Assembly (NCBI RefSeq): GCF_000285295.1
Contig: NZ_CADP01000007.1
Location: 35,075-87,517 of the forward strand
Direction of reading: 5' to 3'
Source: Komagataeibacter europaeus LMG 18890
GTDB taxonomy: Bacteria > Pseudomonadota > Alphaproteobacteria > Acetobacterales > Acetobacteraceae
DNA length: 52,443 nt
The notes below the pieces were generated by a model, which saw nothing but the letters and a program-made list of their open reading frames with translations, was not told the DNA's origin and searched no databases. Positions 2,434 through 52,443 of this stretch are shown piece by piece. The position numbers were made by a program, and so were the translations under genes. Numbering within the stretch: the first letter of the stretch is position 1; the number at the start of each line of letters is the position of its first letter.

Positions 2434-3498
2434 TTATTTGGCGCTCAGGTCCACAACGCAGGCGCGGCCATCTTCCGAACCAAAGGCAAGGCAGCAGCCA
2501 TCGGGACTGAATTCCAGCGCCGTCACCGCGCCCGACCCGCCGATGCATACCGGCAGGATACGCTGCGCCCCGGTATCGGCCATCAGCACCGATCCGTCGG
2601 CAAACCCCGCCGCCACAATATCATGGACGGGATGACAGGCGACACGGGTGCACATGACGCCCGGCAGGCCGCCGGCCTCGGCCGGGGGCTTGCCCATCGG
2701 GCCGCCACCAAAGAACGGCCACATCACGATGGTGTCCGCCCCGCTGGTCACCAGCCACTTGCCATTGCGGGTAAAGGCCATGGACTGCACCTTGGACGGA
2801 TAACCGCTCATGCGCATGTTATGCCCGTCCGACAGCCGCCAGCCATGCAGTTCCGATTCCTGCATGGATGTGACCAGCGCCTCACCGGCGGGATGGATGG
2901 CGATGCCGATATGGCTGCCCTTCCATTCCAGCGGACGCACGGTATCCACCTTCGCCTGCACGAACCACATTGATGCGCCATTATAGTGTGAGGCGGCAAT
3001 CCGCTTGCCCTTGGCATCGAACACGATGCCGCTGACGGTGGAAGGATGATCCAGCACCTTCAGCGTGGTCTGCCCGTCGGCATCGCGCAGTTCGACCTGC
3101 TTGCCCGATGCAAAGGCGATCACGCCGCCCTTGCCATTGGTCCATGTCGTGATGTGCTCGATCCAGCGGCGACCTTTTGCAAGGTCCGTGACGCTGCCAT
3201 CGGCGCCGACACGGCGCAGGGCGTTGTCATCGCCACCGGTCAGGAAGCCGGTGGGGGCGGCATCGGGCGCAATGGCAAGGATCGCGCCATCATGCACGGT
3301 CATGACGTTCCATGCATTCGACTGGCCCCAGTCCGCCCGGTCCGCCACCATGATGTCGCCCTCACCCGTGGCGAAGGCGACCTGCTGGCTGTCGCGTGAG
3401 ATGGCGCAGCCGGTAATCTGGCCTTCCATCTGGCGCATGGCCCCACGGCGTTCCAGCAGGCCGGTGGCGGGGATGGTATCGTTTACGGTATCGCTCAT
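2434..3498 (-). CDS. WD40-repeat protein, partner of CobW-type GTPase
   Basis: A 354-residue protein built almost wholly from WD40-like blades. Repeats with the rhythm 'xxVAFATGEGDIMVAD', 'FTRNGKWLVTSGADTIVMW' and 'FSPDGCCLAFGSEDGRACVV' recur about every 40-45 residues, so a seven-bladed propeller is plausible. No signal peptide or enzyme motif is visible, so it probably acts as a cytoplasmic scaffold or binding platform. Its ATG overlaps the stop of the upstream CobW-type GTPase by 4 bp (ATGA), implying translational coupling and a shared role, possibly in metal handling. The biochemical function is unknown. Confidence 0.85.
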   Translation of the reverse strand: MSDTVNDTIPATGLLERRGAMRQMEGQITGCAISRDSQQVAFATGEGDIMVADRADWGQSNAWNVMTVHDGAILAIAPDAAPTGFLTGGDDNALRRVGADGSVTDLAKGRRWIEHITTWTNGKGGVIAFASGKQVELRDADGQTTLKVLDHPSTVSGIVFDAKGKRIAASHYNGASMWFVQAKVDTVRPLEWKGSHIGIAIHPAGEALVTSMQESELHGWRLSDGHNMRMSGYPSKVQSMAFTRNGKWLVTSGADTIVMWPFFGGGPMGKPPAEAGGLPGVMCTRVACHPVHDIVAAGFADGSVLMADTGAQRILPVCIGGSGAVTALEFSPDGCCLAFGSEDGRACVVDLSAK

Positions 3499-4496
3499 TT
3501 CGCACGGCAGCTTTCAAAACCGCGGCGAAGCTGCGGACGGTTGAGGTTACGGCCAATGAAGACCAGGCGGGAGACACGCGGCTCACCTTCCTTCCACGGG
3601 CCGATGAAGCCGCCATCGGCCATCATGTGCACGGCCTGGAAGGCGAAACGCTGGTCCTCGCCAGCGTAGTTCAGGATGCCCTTGGCGCGCAGGATGTCGG
3701 CCCCCTGTTCCTGCAGCACCGCGCCGATCCATGCCTGGAACTTGGCGGCGTCCAGCGGTTCTTCCACTTCATAGGACAGGGAAGTCACGTCCGCTTCATG
3801 GGAATGGCTGGTATCCTCAAGGAAACGCGGCGCGTGTTCCAGCGCGCGCTGCAGGTCGAACCCGCCCTGGTCCAGCACATCGGACAACGGCACGTCGCCG
3901 CGCTGCGCGCGGTGGATGCGCCCGACGGCGTTGATGGAACGGATGCGCGATTCGATGGTGGCCAGCGCCACTTCGTCCACAAGGTCGGTCTTGTTGAGGA
4001 TGATGACATCGGCAAACGCGATCTGGTTCACCGCTTCCGGGCTTTCATCAAGCGTCTGGATGACGTTGTAGGCATCGACCACCGTGACCACGGCGTCCAG
4101 CCGGGTCTTGCCGCGCACGTCCTCGTCCACGAAAAAGGTCTGGGCGACGGGGGCGGGATCGGCCAGGCCGGTAGTCTCGACAATGATGCCGTCGAACTTC
4201 GCCCGGCGCTTCATGAGGTTGCCGAGAATGCGGATCAGGTCGCCGCGCACGGTGCAGCAGATGCAGCCGTTGTTCATCTCGAACACTTCCTCGTCGGCAT
4301 CCACCACGAGGTCGTTGTCCACGCCAAGTTCACCGAACTCGTTCACCACCACCGCGTATTTGCGGCCGTGCTGCGCCGTCAGGATATGGTTGAGCAGCGT
4401 GGTCTTGCCCGCCCCCAGGAATCCCGTCAGCACCGTAACCGGCACGAGGGTGTTCTGGGCTGTGGCGTCTGGCGACGCCTGAACGGTATCGGACAT
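3495..4496 (-). CDS. CobW/COG0523-family GTPase, putative metallochaperone
   Basis: A 333-residue G3E-class P-loop GTPase of the CobW/YjiA/ZigA type. The Walker A motif GFLGAGKTT is at residues 25-33, the metal-binding CXCC motif (CICC) is at 78-81, and NKTD gives guanine specificity near residue 168. The C-terminal CobW_C domain (roughly 230-325) ends with the family's 'RLVFIGRNL' strand. Members load or deliver zinc, cobalt or other metals using GTP. There is no His-rich stretch, so the metal cannot be guessed. First gene of a two-gene unit with the WD40 protein (4-bp overlap). I found no convincing Zur-type palindrome in the 120 bp upstream. Confidence 0.9.
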   Translation of the reverse strand: MSDTVQASPDATAQNTLVPVTVLTGFLGAGKTTLLNHILTAQHGRKYAVVVNEFGELGVDNDLVVDADEEVFEMNNGCICCTVRGDLIRILGNLMKRRAKFDGIIVETTGLADPAPVAQTFFVDEDVRGKTRLDAVVTVVDAYNVIQTLDESPEAVNQIAFADVIILNKTDLVDEVALATIESRIRSINAVGRIHRAQRGDVPLSDVLDQGGFDLQRALEHAPRFLEDTSHSHEADVTSLSYEVEEPLDAAKFQAWIGAVLQEQGADILRAKGILNYAGEDQRFAFQAVHMMADGGFIGPWKEGEPRVSRLVFIGRNLNRPQLRRGFESCRAK

Positions 4497-34051: not shown

Positions 34052-35071
34052 GTGAAGATCGATGCCCGCGCCACCAATGCCACCCTGCAGGCACCCGGCG
34101 CGCTGCGGGCCATCATCCTGCATGGGGACGATGCAGGCCTGATCCGCGAACGGGCCACGACAGTGGCGAAAGCGGTCTGTCCCGACCTGCATGATCCATT
34201 CCGCGTTGCCATACTGGGCCGTGAGGACCATGACCGGCTGGAGGAGGAAACAGCCGCCCTCGCCCTGACGGGCGGGCGGCGGGTGGTCTGGCTGCGTGAC
34301 GCGGGCGACAGCGTGCTGGCGGCATTGCAGCACAGCCTGGCCCGGCCATCCGATACGCTGGTCATCATCGAAGCGCCGGGGCTTGCGTCGCGCTCGAAAC
34401 TGCGGGCCTTTGCGGAAAAGGACAGGCAGTGCGGGATAATCGGCTGTTACCCCGAAGAAGGGCGGACGCTGGAAGCCGCCATCCGGCAGATGCTATCGGC
34501 GCAGGATGTCGGTATCGACCCCGATGCGCTGGGATGGATGGTGGAACGCGCAGGCCCGGACCGCGCGGCAACACGCAGCGAGGTGGAGAAACTGGCCCTG
34601 TTCGCAGGCAAGGGTGGCAGGCTGGGGCTGGAGGATGTCCGTGCCTGCGTTGGTGACGCGGCTGGCGTATCACTGGAAGATGCCGCCTTTGCCGCCATGG
34701 CGGGCGACCGCAGGGGGGCAGATACCGCAGCCGAGCGCGCGCTGACCATTGATGGCAGCAGTCCCATCGCCCTGACGCGCGTGCTGCTGTCGCATATCCA
34801 CCGGCTACGCCGGGCACGCCTTGCGGTGGATGGGGGGGCAAGCCGGGCGGACGCCATGCGACAACTCCGCCCCCCGGTCTTTTTCAAACGCACCGACAGC
34901 TTCGGGCAGGCCATGATGATATGGTCGGCCAGCGCCCTGCTGCACGCGGCGGAGGAAACACAGGCGCTGGAACTGGCCTGCAAGCAGACCGGCAGCCCCG
35001 ATGTCGTGCTGTGCCTGCGCCATGTCGCCCGTTTGTGCGCACAGGCACAGCAGATGCGCAGGCGACGTTGA
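34052..35071 (+). CDS. holA: DNA polymerase III delta subunit
   Basis: A 339-residue clamp-loader subunit that opens the beta clamp. Domain I-II (AAA+-like without Walker A) covers about 15-200, with AIILHGDDAGLIRERA at the start, RRVVWLRDAGD, and LVIIEAPGLASRSKLRAFAEK; the C-terminal helical collar domain follows. It starts with GTG at 34052, 5 bp after the lptE stop, consistent with the leuS-lptE-holA operon. Confidence 0.93.
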   Translation: MKIDARATNATLQAPGALRAIILHGDDAGLIRERATTVAKAVCPDLHDPFRVAILGREDHDRLEEETAALALTGGRRVVWLRDAGDSVLAALQHSLARPSDTLVIIEAPGLASRSKLRAFAEKDRQCGIIGCYPEEGRTLEAAIRQMLSAQDVGIDPDALGWMVERAGPDRAATRSEVEKLALFAGKGGRLGLEDVRACVGDAAGVSLEDAAFAAMAGDRRGADTAAERALTIDGSSPIALTRVLLSHIHRLRRARLAVDGGASRADAMRQLRPPVFFKRTDSFGQAMMIWSASALLHAAEETQALELACKQTGSPDVVLCLRHVARLCAQAQQMRRRR

Positions 35072-35145
35072 GGGGCGAAATATTCCCTTCCCCTTCGTGA
35101 AACATCTTGCCGCGCGCCTGGGCCTCGTTTAGAAAACCCGGGTGT

Positions 35146-35447
35146 GTCCGCGTAGCTCAGCCGGATAGAGCACAGGATTCCTGGTTTGCAATTGGGCGTC
35201 ACGACGGGAAACCACGTGGCGGATCTGCTCAAATTCGGGGAACGCTCTGGCAAATGCCGTGCCAATCCCGAGCCAAGGCCGGTTTTCCGGCAAGGTGTAG
35301 AGACTGGATGGGCAGCACCTGTCAACCGCATGCGGTTTATGGTGAAGGGACAGTCCAGACCACGAACGCCATACCCCTATGGCGGCGGTGAAAGCCGAAG
35401 TGGTACGAATCCTGGGGCCGTGGGTTCGAATCCCGCCGCGGACACCA
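35146..35447 (+). tRNA. tRNA-Arg(CCU), split by a group I intron
   Basis: Exon 1 is 35146-35182 and exon 2 is 35408-35447. Joined, they give a 77-nt cloverleaf: acceptor GTCCGCG/CGCGGAC, D-arm GCTC...GAGC, anticodon stem CAGGA/TCCTG with loop TTCCTAA (anticodon CCU), T-arm GTGGG-TTCGAAT-CCCGC, discriminator A and encoded CCA. The intron interrupts the loop directly after the third anticodon base. CCU reads the AGG arginine codon. General tRNA finders may miss it because of the insert. Confidence 0.95.
35183..35407 (+). ncRNA. Self-splicing group I intron (225 nt), tRNA-Arg anticodon loop
   Basis: Splice sites fit the class: the upstream exon ends in U (35182) and the intron ends in G (35407, omega-G). 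P1 can form between exon CCU (35180-35182) and intron GGG (35194-35196), giving a U-G pair at the cut. Conserved core elements appear in order: P (AAATTCGGGGAAC, 35231-35243), Q (AATCCCGAGCC, 35264-35274), R (GTAGAGACTGGATGG, about 35297-35311) and S (AAGGGACAGTCCAGACC, about 35345-35361), with GACTG/CAGTC forming P7. No homing endonuclease is encoded. Size and site match the intron known in Agrobacterium tRNA-Arg(CCU), subgroup IC3. Confidence 0.93.
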
Positions 35448-36464
35448 CACATTCCACATTGTCATGTGGTGCCTCCTGAACCCTGAAAACGGTTTTCACA
35501 TGCGGCGTCCCGCCGCCATGCGAAAGGTCGTTCGGCATCCCACCCCGGATGAAACCACATCCCGCCCTGTCACATCCTGTTTGCGAGCCGCCCTACGGCG
35601 CTGAATACGGTATGCCGCCATCAAGGCGGGATGTGCCGTGGCTTTTCTCGCGTCCCGGGGGAAGCCACATGCGCCAACACCGTGCAGCAGCAGGCTGCAT
35701 CCGGCAAGGGGCGTTGCGACCGGATTGCCCAGGACCAGACCATCCGGTCCCGGGATGCGGTATAAGGCATGATGCTACTGTTCCGGATTTCCGGACCTGT
35801 CAGGCTGCCTTGAGAGACAGCCCATGAGATGTCCCGCGCATTCTGAAGAATAGTCTTCAAAAAGCAGAATTAACAAAATCATTCCTCATTCATGAATGAT
35901 CCATAGGACAATTATTCTGAATTTACCAATTCACATACAATAAATTCTATAAATGGCACGATGATAAATGCCAATATTCATTAAATTGGCAAAATAAAAT
36001 AACAAATGAAATATTACGAAAACAAAAACAGCATCGAGACATTATAAAAAATAACAAAATATTTCTATTCCATTCCATGAACAGTCAATTCATAGAGGAC
36101 AAAATACATACTGTTTGCGGGAAGCATGCGGATAGAAAAAAGTTTCATGGATACAATAATTTATGAACGAAAATATTTCGTGTTCCGATTTCCGCATGGA
36201 AAACCATCGAAAGTGTGTGATTTGTACCAACCCCACCATTCCTGGACTGAACTGTTTTTTTTGTGATTGTTGTCCGAGATACGGTAAATGTATGGTTAAG
36301 ATATGGCGGAACATAATGTCCGTTTTTGAGCATCTTCAGGTCCTGACAGGCCTGAAACAAGAAACGTGCGCGTGTTTCGTTCCATACCGCAAATAAAAAC
36401 CTGCGTTTCCTGTTCCTTGCTAAATAACGCTCCGCTCTCGGACTTACTGGCTGGTGGATTTCTG
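35448..36464. other. Gene-poor region, strongly AT-rich in its right half
   Basis: About 1 kb with no convincing gene. 35448-35830 has normal GC with small hairpins (TGAAAACGGTTTTCA at about 35486; GCGGCG-TCC-CGCCGC after it), which may end tRNA transcription. From about 35830 to 36420 the base composition drops sharply, unlike any flanking DNA. It contains the dyad TGCCAAT-N9-ATTGGCA (35969-35991). A 77-codon Cys-rich frame (36163-36396) has no good ribosome-binding site. Probably foreign DNA or a long regulatory leader for the next gene. Confidence 0.6.
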
Positions 36465-41266: not shown

Positions 41267-42286
41267 TTATTTGGCTGCATCCCACTGCTGCAGGATATCG
41301 GTTTTCACATTCGCGGGCACCGGCACATAATCAAGACGGTAGGCGGCAGCGTCCCCGTTCTTCAGCGCATAGCCAAAGAATTTGCGTACTGCCGGGCCAT
41401 GTTCGGTCTTGCCCGTCGGCACCGGCACCAGCACATAGGTGGGAGAGACAATCGGCCATGCCCCCGCGCCGCTGGTGTCCAGCAGGTCAACGGCGAAATG
41501 CGATGCATCCTTCCAATCCGCGGCTTCCGCCGCACGGCTGAAACTGTCCATGCCCGGGGCGACAAAGGCGCCGCTGTGATTCTTCAGCTTGACGGTGGTC
41601 ATGTGCGCATTGGCGGCGAAGGCATATTCGACATAGCCGATCGCCCCTTCCGTATTGCGCACGGACGCGGCCACGCCATCATTGCCGCGCGCCCCGATCC
41701 CGCCAGGCCATGAAATGGAAGCGCCAGCCCCCTGCCCTTCGCGCCATTCGGGGGAAACACGGGCCAGATAGCCGGTGAAAACCGCCGTCGTGCCCGACCC
41801 GTCCGCACGGTGCACGGTGGCGATGGCGGTATCAGGCAGCTTCAGCCCGGGATTGAGGGCCGCGATTTTCGGATCATTCCACTGTTCGATCTCGCCACGA
41901 TAGATCGCGGCCAGTGTCGGACCATCAAGCTGGATCTGGTTGGCGGCGATACCCGGCAGATTGATGACCGGCACAATCCCGCCCATGACGGTGGGAAACT
42001 GGAACAGGTGGGCATTTTCCAGCTTCTGGCGATCCATGGGCACGTCGGATGCACCGAAATCAACCGTGCCGGCCAGAATCTGGTTCTGTCCGGCGCTGGA
42101 CCCCACGGTCTGGTAATTCAGGTTGACGCCAGCCGCGCTCCGTCCGTCAGCCCCCCATGCCCCGTAAATGGGCGCGGCAAAACTGGAGCCGGCACCTGTA
42201 ATATCCGCAGCATGTGCGATGACCGGCAATGCGGTCGCCAGCAGGGCACATGTAAGCATTCGAGCAGGAAAGTACATAATACTCAT
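41267..42286 (-). CDS. pstS: Phosphate ABC transporter substrate-binding protein PstS
   Basis: A 339-residue periplasmic phosphate-binding protein. The signal peptide ends VIAHAADIT; ITGAGSSFAAPIY is the phosphate-binding loop of PstS; DFGASDVPM, HRADGSGTT and AIGYVEYAF complete the site. No pstC, pstA, pstB or phoU is adjacent, so the permease is encoded elsewhere or this is an extra copy. The ATG at 42286 has GGAG three bases before it; an ATG four codons upstream lacks a ribosome-binding site. A Pho-box array lies about 90 bp upstream and a strong terminator follows the gene. Confidence 0.94.
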   Translation of the reverse strand: MSIMYFPARMLTCALLATALPVIAHAADITGAGSSFAAPIYGAWGADGRSAAGVNLNYQTVGSSAGQNQILAGTVDFGASDVPMDRQKLENAHLFQFPTVMGGIVPVINLPGIAANQIQLDGPTLAAIYRGEIEQWNDPKIAALNPGLKLPDTAIATVHRADGSGTTAVFTGYLARVSPEWREGQGAGASISWPGGIGARGNDGVAASVRNTEGAIGYVEYAFAANAHMTTVKLKNHSGAFVAPGMDSFSRAAEAADWKDASHFAVDLLDTSGAGAWPIVSPTYVLVPVPTGKTEHGPAVRKFFGYALKNGDAAAYRLDYVPVPANVKTDILQQWDAAK

Positions 42287-48473: not shown

Positions 48474-48626
48474 TTAAATAAGAGCAATATGTCCGTGGAA
48501 CCATAGTTCAATAACAACGATATGCAGGACCAGAAGTAGCGTCAAGATTGACCAGCGTCTTACCCGTGCCTGCGTTAGCGTCAGGAAGGCCAGGAATTCA
48601 ATCATCAGCGGGTTAGAAAAGACATA
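48474..48626 (-). pseudogene. 3' fragment of disrupted PIG-V-like mannosyltransferase
   Basis: Fifty codons (YVFSNPLMIEF... to HGHIALI) plus stop, including a final membrane helix (ILTLLLVLHIVVIELWF). It has no start of its own near the IS edge. Joined to the 5' fragment after removal of IS and MITE, it continues the frame exactly: ...GLESIER + YVFSNPL..., completing a 382-residue protein. See the 49615-50613 entry. Confidence 0.88.
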
Positions 48627-49468
48627 GGGCCTGTTAGGGCTTGATCCAGTCTGCTGCGGCAGCGATGTGGATGACCGCGAGGAACGACGTTGCTGTTTTT
48701 TCGTATCTGGTTGCGACAGCGCGCCACTCCTTGAGGCGAGCCCAGAGGTTCTCGACAAGATGTCGACACCGATAGGCCCATTTTGGGCAGGCGACCGGCC
48801 CATCGCGTCGTTTCGCAGGAATGGCGGGCCGGGCTCCCATGTCCCATATCCGTTCACGAAAGGCATTCGACGCATAGCCCTTGTCCGCCACTACCCACAG
48901 GGGAATGGCGGGAAGGTTGTCGAGCATGGCTGGTGCCAGGGGCAGTTCATGAGCCTGTCCGGGGCCAGCGCAAAACCGAAGGCTTTTCCATGTCCATCAG
49001 CGATCACGCAGACTTTCGTGCCATAGCCGCCGCGAGAGCGGCCAAGTGCTTCACGATGGTCCCGCTCTTCGAAAGAGGCCCCTTTTTTTGGGCTCCCGCC
49101 GCCTTGTGGTGAGCCCTGATGTTCGTACCATCCAGAAAAGTCATTCCGAACGCCACTCCCTGTTGTTCCTGAACCAGTTCGAGCAAGCGTTCCCATACGC
49201 CGAGTTTCGACCAGCGGATGAAAAGCTGCGCCGCCCGCCACCATGGACCCAGTTCAGCGGGGATGCTCCGCCATTTCGCGCCATTCTCATGGCGCCAGAA
49301 AATTGCTGCTATCGTACGCCGCAGATCATGGGGCGGCGTCTTGCCCCTTGGGCGAACCGCCTCAATCAGAGGTTCCCAGATCGCCCATGTCTCGTCCGTA
49401 AAGGTGCCTGTTCTGTCTCCTTCTTCCATCCCTATAATATGGGAAGAAATTCAAGATCTAACAGGCCC
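48627..49468 (-). mobile_element. IS5-family insertion sequence (IS427-like), 842 bp
   Basis: Terminal inverted repeats GGGCCTGTTAG...CTAACAGGCCC (11 perfect bp, then NNCTTGA also shared). It is flanked by TA direct repeats (48625-48626 and 49469-49470). It contains a DDE transposase on the minus strand in more than one frame. It is inserted next to a MITE inside the mannosyltransferase gene. Confidence 0.92.
48634..49429 (-). pseudogene. IS5-family transposase, two frame changes
   Basis: Frame A (49429 to 49004): TDETWAIWEPLIEAVRP, a DUF4096-type N-terminus, and FLDGTNIRAHHKAAG with the first catalytic Asp. At AAAAAAA (49083-49089), a -1 shift of the kind programmed in IS427-group elements leads into the frame reading EALGRSRGGYGTKVCVIADG. 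Near 48970 a further -1 shift is needed to reach PLWVVADKGYAS (second Asp) and HLVENLWARLKEWRAVATRYEK (final Glu region). The second shift looks like a lost G in the sequence coding LAPGQAHELPLAP, so this copy is probably dead. Confidence 0.85.
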
Positions 49469-49470
49469 TA

Positions 49471-49615
49471 GCACTACAGTTGCAGTTTGTTTTGTTCGTT
49501 AATTGTTCATGGTTTCCGTGCTTTCCAGAAAGCTCGAATTTCAGACGGTCTACATCGAGAAAAACCGCAAATTCTTCATCTTTCTAGGCCGGAAACCAAA
49601 CTGCAACTGTAGTGC
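49471..49615. mobile_element. 145-bp MITE with 19-bp perfect terminal inverted repeats
   Basis: Ends GCACTACAGTTGCAGTTTG (49471-49489) and CAAACTGCAACTGTAGTGC (49597-49615), flanked on both sides by TA, the target duplication typical of IS630/Tc1-type transposases. The interior is AT-rich and non-coding. It interrupts the mannosyltransferase gene, and its right-hand TA forms part of the premature TAG stop (49615-49617). Confidence 0.9.
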
Positions 49616-51400: not shown

Positions 51401-51723
51401 CCAAGGGCTACTGTCTCTGACTCATCTGTGAAGTGACGCGAAGGGCCTTATGTGGACGGCTCTGTCTTGCAAGGGGGAAAATAGTGGTGTGACCGTGTCG
51501 TTTGCACCCATATGTCCGGCCTGTTGTTGCAGTGTTCAGACTGCTGGCCAAGATGGTTTCTGCGATGGAAGTTCCATTCAGTTCTGCGGTTTTTGAAAAC
51601 CACGGGCTCTTGCGGAGTGTCTTCCATTCAGATCGAACGATCCCCCCATCTCCTCTTTGCAGGACTGCGGTATCGGCTCACACGATCACATTCCGTTTCT
51701 GTGCATCGTGTTGGCCAATTTCG
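51401..51723 (-). ncRNA. Non-coding end of IS110 element, possible bridge-RNA locus
   Basis: About 320 bp between the transposase stop and the element's edge without a gene. IS110-family elements express a structured bridge RNA from a non-coding end, in the IS1111 subgroup downstream of the transposase. I could not fold it by eye with certainty, so the RNA is inferred from position and length only. Confidence 0.35.
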
Positions 51724-52443
51724 TCAGGAAGCGGCAGCTGCTGCCATCGCGCCGGCCTCCACCGGTTTGCGATATGTCTCGCCGCTGGTCATCAGCTTCC
51801 ATGCAATGCGTGCCATCCTGTTGGCCAGGGCTACAGCAGCGAGCTTCGCCTTCTTTCTGCCCAGAAGACTGACGAGCCACGGCGTGGCGAGGCGGCTCTG
51901 TTTGTTCTGCCGCACATGCCGAAGCACGGTTGTTGCTCCGACAACCAGGGTGCTTCTCAGGCGGCTGTCTCCGGCCCGGGTAATCCCGCCGTGTCTGACT
52001 TTGCCGCCGGACGAATGATCCCGAGGGGTGAGACCTATCCAGGCCGCGAAGTCCCGGCCTGAACGGAACAGATGCGGATCCGGAGCCTTCATGAGCAGCA
52101 GAGCCGCTCCCAGAGGACCGATGCCCGGAATTCCGGATAGCCTGCGGCTCACCTCCTGACTTCGATGCCATGTGGCAAGTTTTTCATCAAGCTCCCTGAT
52201 ATGCTCCATCAGGGCACCATACTCTTCTGCCATCTGTGCAAACATCTCGCGCGCCAGGGAGGGAAGGATATCCTCGGACGCAATCTGCCTGAGGAACGGC
52301 TCAACGCGGGAGAGACCAAGGGGAGCAGTCAATCCGAATTCGGCAGCATATCCCCGGATGGAGTTGGCCAGCTGCGTACGTCTGCCAACGAGCCGCTCCC
52401 GCATGCCGACAAGCATGAGGGCTGCCTGCTGCTCAACCGTCTT
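51724..52443 (-). CDS. IS110-family transposase (recombinase), 5' end outside window
   Basis: 239 residues of the C-terminal two-thirds. After a coiled-coil linker (MEHIRELDEKLATWH), the transposase_20 domain begins with LSGIPGIGPLGAALLL, then FAAWIGLTPRDHSSGGK and GGITRAGDSRLRSTLVVGA, the region with the serine used by these DEDD/serine recombinases. The N-terminal RuvC-like DEDD domain would lie beyond base 52443. The long non-coding part after the stop resembles the IS1111 subgroup. Confidence 0.9.
   Translation of the reverse strand, partial: KTVEQQAALMLVGMRERLVGRRTQLANSIRGYAAEFGLTAPLGLSRVEPFLRQIASEDILPSLAREMFAQMAEEYGALMEHIRELDEKLATWHRSQEVSRRLSGIPGIGPLGAALLLMKAPDPHLFRSGRDFAAWIGLTPRDHSSGGKVRHGGITRAGDSRLRSTLVVGATTVLRHVRQNKQSRLATPWLVSLLGRKKAKLAAVALANRMARIAWKLMTSGETYRKPVEAGAMAAAAAS

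Follow-up and report, generated by a model that had tools for sequence, protein, structure and literature searches.

A group I intron in the anticodon loop of a tRNA-Arg(CCU) gene, and its relatives in the anticodon loops of other tRNAs

The stretch of 52,443 nucleotides analysed in this work (hereafter, the window) carries on the plus strand, at 35146-35447, a tRNA-Arg(CCU) gene split by a 225-nt group I intron. The intron is very probably functional, a member of the family found in alphaproteobacterial tRNA-Arg(CCU) genes, and a nearly neutral passenger of the sole tRNA-Arg(CCU) gene found in the genome. When introns are allowed, ARAGORN reports a tRNA-Arg(cct) at these coordinates, and places the intron between ttcct and aatcc; removal of the 225 nt separating the anticodon from A37 leaves a sequence which folds as tRNA-Arg(CCU). 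The boundaries match to the base those of a preliminary description of the window, in which the intron had been located directly 3' of the anticodon. The 5' exon (35146..35182) ends with the anticodon CCU (positions 34-36), the intron (35183..35407), recognized also by RF00028 and by the family model R1 described below, ends with omega-G, and the 3' exon (35408..35447) encodes the CCA end.

The splice bases are those expected from the preliminary description, the last base of the 5' exon being U, and the last of the intron G. The P1 helix, also anticipated there with its U-G pair, was read by eye: the intron GGG pairs with the exon CCU, the U.G pair falls at the splice site, and the helix can be extended by pairing GGUU with AAUU. 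The internal guide sequence AAUUGGG, similarly identified by eye, spans 35190..35196, and the AUU beside GGG can pair with AAU of the 3' exon to form a candidate P10. The covariation alignment places the P2 hairpin, capped by a GAAA tetraloop, at 35198..35220, the two strands of P3, enclosing P4, P5, P6 and the 5' strand of P7, at 35225..35315, the P8 hairpin at 35316..35344, and the 3' strand of P7 at 35351..35355, its partner being 35302-35306. The P9 region, outlined from sequence and alignment, with hairpins drawn by eye, extends to the 3' splice site (35363..35407). In the RF00028 alignment, the core elements P, Q, R and S follow one another in the order previously indicated. No endonuclease gene resides in the 225-nt intron; the ORFs found there, 94-107 aa long, overlap one another, extend across the tRNA, and are apparently spurious. 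One of 107 aa, on the minus strand (35129-35452), overlies the split tRNA; similar peptides are encoded antisense to two relatives (L229 and L240), and antisense ORFs over split tRNAs may have been mis-annotated as proteins. The gene preceding the split tRNA presumably resembles holA. A relative of this gene adjoins 15 of 58 split genes, and none of the 12 intact genes fetched, as counted in flanks of 1 or 1.5 kb, some of which are interrupted by contig ends.

That the tRNA would be overlooked by ordinary searches holds true, as ARAGORN in its default mode detects no tRNA anywhere in the window. A run in which the position of the intron was fixed returned a wrong anticodon (Gln), and was discarded. 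ARAGORN labels of split genes are often wrong (e.g. His, Phe), and boundaries were therefore set by hand from the tRNA loops. According to a passage of PMC8450103, tRNAscan-SE is not designed for intron-split tRNAs of this type, the cases mentioned being fMet and Ile2. A scan of the window with Rfam models at gathering score was empty. A permissive scan of the interval 35000-35600 (601 bases) revealed a match to RF00028 at 35177-35366, covering positions 1-253 of the 253 of the model (34.3 bits, E 4.8e-7). The covariance model, recommended earlier as a check, thus recognizes the intron in full length, yet below the gathering score of 50, which is a curated threshold, and no defining part of a group I molecule. 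The family model R1, built from relatives, assigns to the intron 178.8 bits, and finds a single place in the 4.2-Mb genome (E 8.5e-55). The match to group I introns is far beyond chance.

The fold was assessed on a structural alignment of 78 introns, reduced to 61 by a redundancy filter, and to 55 by removing by hand six sequences, mostly with long insertions. In these 55 introns, 94.6% of the cells of the P2-P8 structure, including the P7 pseudoknot, are paired, against 32-44% when partners are slid, a percentage leaning to the window intron because the structure was drawn from it. Changes occurring on both sides of a pair are stronger evidence. They were counted in 257 cells, against a mean of 66 in shuffled alignments (none of 500 shuffles being as high), and involve 29 of the 42 pairs. 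The two helices of P2 are paired in 90.9% and 80.5% of cells, and 7 of their 8 pairs vary on both sides. Paired cells amount to 99.4% in P3, 100% in P4, 87.4% in P5, a short hairpin, 100% in P7, where two pairs vary on both sides, and to 100% and 86.8% in the outer and inner parts of P8. The P3-P8 core, with the P3/P7 pseudoknot and P4-P6, is therefore present and backed by covariation, as befits a group I intron. By resemblance to introns hosted in tRNAs, the subgroup is probably IC3. The insertion in the anticodon loop and the homologous core place the intron among those of alphaproteobacterial tRNA-Arg(CCU) genes, as judged from relatives in genomes of its family.

The genome to which the window belongs is available as an assembly of 4.2 Mb in 321 contigs, with a stated completeness of 99.99%. 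A tRNA model identifies 54 places, all of which could be read, and the Arg anticodons are UCU, CCG and ACG. The preliminary description had remarked that an intact tRNA-Arg(CCU) gene elsewhere would turn the split copy into a decayed remnant; no second tRNA-Arg(CCU) is found among the 54 intact tRNAs, and the intron DNA is single-copy. It is possible that an intact gene resides in one of the assembly gaps. As far as the assembly goes, the notion of a decayed duplicate fails. AGG accounts for 72 of the 14,090 codons of 33 window ORFs, and is about four times as frequent as AGA (17 codons): the codon is uncommon, as stated earlier, but not the rarest.

In a sample of 150 genomes of the same family, a full-length intron at the same site of tRNA-Arg(CCU) occurs in 58, including the one analysed here, and a pattern denoting an intact gene, with up to two mismatches allowed, in 48. 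Intron and intact pattern are never found together, and 44 genomes have neither, either because the pattern misses variants, or because the gene can be absent. Both states coexist within at least two genera, g49 (G048 split, G120 intact) and g73 (G073 split, G133 intact), and the distribution is therefore patchy. Two further genomes of the genus to which the window belongs feature the same split arrangement, with 93% identity. In G073, each of the two tRNAs that read AGR, Arg(UCU) and Arg(CCU), is interrupted by an intron of the same family (L128, L069).

The hypothesis, formulated in the preliminary description, that splicing is a regulatory step, its efficiency setting the level of tRNA-Arg(CCU) and hence the decoding of AGG, is in keeping with the finding of a sole tRNA-Arg(CCU) gene, and with the prevalence of AGG over AGA in the window. 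Yet, tRNA-Arg(UCU), which should decode AGG by wobble, is present and intact, and the occurrence of the intact-gene pattern in 48 of 150 genomes implies that the intron is dispensable in relatives; the proposal is left unsupported, and we regard it as improbable. More improbable still is that the gene is dead, splicing having been lost. An AGG reader may be dispensable, given tRNA-Arg(UCU), but the residues of the core, the splice bases and the stems of the tRNA have been preserved, no intact copy was found, and the arrangement is kept in the two congeneric genomes. Chance resemblance, or another class of RNA, could be invoked to explain the Rfam score under the gathering cut-off, but is refuted by the E value obtained in the 601-base scan, by covariation, and by the tRNA halves flanking the intron.

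A functional intron, tolerated as a passenger, remains the preferred reading. The gene would be transcribed as an interrupted pre-tRNA, in which the intron would fold into a compact ribozyme, probably of the IC3 subgroup. The guide GGG would pair with the CCU that closes the 5' exon, where cleavage would occur with a guanosine cofactor. CCU would then be joined to AAUCC at omega-G, to produce, in a form suitable for charging, a tRNA-Arg(CCU) for which no other gene was found in the genome. To judge from the sequence, the intron probably cuts itself out of the tRNA. It has probably been inherited within the genus, carries no endonuclease gene, and in all likelihood represents an almost neutral passenger, obliged to splice well.

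The host had been surmised to be an acetic acid bacterium, a view supported, though not proven, by two sets of data. The best matches of a 2-kb stretch of one rRNA locus, around tRNA-Ile and tRNA-Ala, are three plasmid records of Acetobacter, Oecophyllibacter and Formicincola (89-91%). In turn, two insertion sequences in the window match Komagataeibacter plasmids with 97.5% and 97.6% identity, evidence which is weak because such elements are mobile. The two elements (~48620-49475 and 51445-52443) are IS5-like and IS110-like according to the records matched, and overall exhibit about 95-98% identity to Komagataeibacter plasmids and 89-96% to Acetobacter ones. Neither the leading 25 kb of the window nor a plasmid search with its LeuRS-like protein yielded a signal of this kind.

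On balance, the data incline towards the view that a single lineage of small ribozymes is a general guest of tRNA anticodon loops, being hosted in tRNAs with 13 anticodons, at four positions (33/34 to 36/37), in both chromosomes and phages. The ribozyme would switch targets through changes in its guide, 3-4 bases long, and may travel from one species to another in phage tRNA genes. R1 matches were obtained in 72 of the 150 family genomes (82 places), in 42 of 289 genomes drawn from the class, and in 36 of 299 drawn from the phylum, 5 genomes belonging to the same family in each of the two latter samples; R1 searches over 40 genomes were run with stricter filters, and weak matches were lost. 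The hosts in the family sample are tRNA-Arg(CCU) in 58 places, Leu(UAA) in 12, Thr(GGU) in 5, and Leu(UAG), a doubtful reading of an odd loop, in 2. Lys(UUU), Arg(UCU) and Leu(CAA) occur once each, and two weak places, one of which is an Asn(GUU) candidate, were not counted. Lys(CUU), Thr(CGU) and CAU tRNAs, besides further Leu(UAA), come to light in the samples drawn from the class and the phylum. Loci unreadable as split tRNAs (nine of the 20 of one search set, and L222) were excluded, and places fetched twice were counted once.

Introns interrupt the loop at 33/34 in two Leu CAA and two CAU tRNAs, at 34/35 in Leu UAA, two Arg UCU and one Lys UUU, at 35/36 in the remaining Lys, and at 36/37 in Arg CCU, Thr, two CAU and one Arg UCU. 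The anticodons found split overall are CCU, UCU, UAA, CAA, GGU, CGU, UGU, UUU, CUU, CAU, UUG, GUU and UUC, several of which rest on one to three examples. The U at the exon end and the G at the intron end are partly built in, boundaries having been chosen to give them. In one tRNA-Leu reading CAA (L213), the intron resides at the Leu(UAA) site, the exon seemingly ends with C, and a C-G pair may take the place of the usual U.G. A partial match of 39.8 bits marks a candidate different intron in tRNA-Asn(GUU) (L177), and two weak R1 matches, 37 bits each, lie at a short distance from one another near tRNA-Gly and tRNA-Cys (L191, ~1001-1226 and 1444-1641). A split Leu(UAA) occurs in 12 family genomes; in 7 of these, the intact-pattern matches listed are only of the Leu(CAA) type. 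Four of the other five have one match, as if only Leu(CAA) were there; G014 has two, and may carry an intact Leu(UAA) beside the split one.

An exact motif, derived from non-Arg introns, identified at least 121 places in named bacteria. Among the matches listed, 109 were readable: 88 Leu(UAA), split at 34/35, 15 Arg(CCU), 2 Thr(GGU), 2 Thr(UGU), 1 Lys(UUU), and one odd Leu; given the origin of the motif, these shares say nothing on the frequency of each class. Split Leu(UAA) genes occur, among the matches listed, in Sphingomonas yantingensis, Bradyrhizobium lablabi, Reyranella soli, Paracoccus zeaxanthinifaciens, Paraburkholderia tropica and Carnimonas nigrificans. In named Methylobacterium genomes, relatives interrupt the same tRNA as in the window, and at the same position. 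The automated loop reader agreed with labels assigned by hand in 93 of 144 cases, and in 140 of 144 when the 3'-most omega-G was taken to break ties and one stem mismatch was allowed, settings tuned and checked on the same set.

Guides fit their hosts. In the aligned guide column, give or take one base, 3 or more bases of the own exon are paired in 111 of 113 introns; the exceptions, two Thr(CGU) introns, have a matching GCG two bases away. Summed over all introns, the guide score reaches 371 (mean of shuffles 281.7, highest 306), and 182 when Arg(CCU) is left out (mean 126.5, highest 145); in neither case did any of 2000 shuffles reach the score. GGG is found at the guide column in all 63 Arg(CCU) introns, and GAGU in all 25 Leu(UAA) introns. 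The own host class was outscored by another one in the case of Arg(CCU) (3.03 vs 3.00), Leu(UAG) and Arg(UCU); many exons can form wobble pairs with GGG. A test based on the best P1 found anywhere, from which three Thr(CGU) introns fell out, ranked the own class first in only 2 of 9 classes, and was replaced by the aligned-column test; its totals exceeded those of all 1000 shuffles. The intron tree, from which L177 was excluded, as from the aligned-column test, includes 143 introns and was built by a quick method leaving out P1 and P2. Host labels change 25 times on it, the least possible being 9 and the shuffled mean 65.4, and a minimum of 2 changes is required for Arg(CCU), of 3 for Leu(UAA) and of 2 for Thr(GGU) even if only starred branches are considered. 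The window intron groups with two others of its genus, all in Arg(CCU), with support 88. Resolution of the tree is poor, with 63 of its 140 inner branches open, and we draw from it no direction of transfer.

At least 120 stretches of predicted viral contigs (L226-L345) contain the exact core motif. Among the 121 places listed, 80 fall in a called split tRNA, 79 of which are readable: Leu(UAA) 43, Arg(UCU) 20, Lys(UUU) 5, Arg(CCU) 4, Gln(UUG) 2, Asn(GUU) 2, CAU 2, and Glu(UUC) 1. The remaining 41 lack a called split tRNA, and some appear, on inspection by eye, to be protein genes. Of seven proteins taken from two viral contigs, five match phage families, and no structural protein is among them. 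Host DNA may account for the four Arg(CCU) cases, and in one (L229) an apparently ordinary bacterial enzyme, judged by eye, is encoded alongside. One contig (L254) hosts two split tRNAs, Arg(UCU) and Leu(UAA). An isolated phage is a carrier as well: Gordonia phage Daredevil (NC_048021, complement 41820-42131; L467 1880-2191) has a tRNA-Lys(UUU) gene split by a 238-nt intron, next to an integrase gene and with no annotated feature over it. When the window intron DNA was compared to 50,697 phage records, three matches were obtained at the sensitivity used, two of which are Daredevil. On another contig (L247), a gene resembling homing endonucleases (3439-4062) lies ~1.1 kb downstream of a split tRNA-Leu(UAA) (2008-2291); any connection between them is conjectural. 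The DNA of the split gene of the window matches also 1270 of 72,556 plasmid records, mostly from Enterobacteriaceae. In two enterobacterial plasmids (L465 2949-3245, L466 2925-3222) the split tRNA, labelled "Stop" by ARAGORN and Leu(UAA) by the loop reader, is found near an aac(3)-IId gene.

The intron of the window explains a tRNA missed by default searches. More broadly, tRNA genes, some apparently the sole reader of a codon, would rely on a ribozyme overlooked by tRNA finders. The same kind of intron is carried by tRNA genes of phages, and the movement of endonuclease-free tRNA introns becomes directly testable. Small IC3 group I introns reside in the anticodon loops of Azoarcus tRNA-Ile(CAU) and cyanobacterial tRNA-Leu(UAA). 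The window intron is likewise small and placed in the anticodon loop, and R1 finds CAU and UAA hosts also in proteobacteria; the tRNA differs, and the likeness is one of description. A study by Paquin in 1999 reportedly concerned the sporadic occurrence of the tRNA-Arg(CCU) intron and its transposition.

Bacterial tRNA introns are described in PMC4033280 as residing mostly in cyanobacteria, and in few alpha- and betaproteobacteria; further literature on the subject includes PMC11835236 and PMC4013482. Among the titles and opening lines of abstracts listed, no report was found of proteobacterial Leu, Thr or Lys tRNAs split in this way, or of phage tRNA genes with such introns, though part of this may be in print; a passage of a 2014 review assigns all phage introns then known to protein-coding genes (PMC3984707). 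That the class is known from Agrobacterium tRNA-Arg(CCU), as indicated in the preliminary description, agrees with PMC7717549, where the family is said to have been first seen in Agrobacterium, and the Bartonella tRNA-Arg(CCU) intron BbgpI to self-splice. These introns share with the one of the window the tRNA, the group I helices, and the property of being missed by tRNA annotation (PMC7717549). The host of the window differs in resembling an acetic acid bacterium, and the introns are likened by description rather than by direct sequence comparison. In Asaia bogorensis, an acetic acid bacterium, a tRNA-Arg is split by a group I-like intron, according to a table footnote, a passage giving neither anticodon nor structure (PMC4596401). 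The occurrence in what looks like an acetic acid bacterium is less surprising than previously thought. The intron of the window is real, and an ordinary case, one more member of an intron family already known and hinted at before in acetic acid bacteria. Less expected, and worth following, are the dispersal among many tRNA genes, the fitting guides and the phage carriers.
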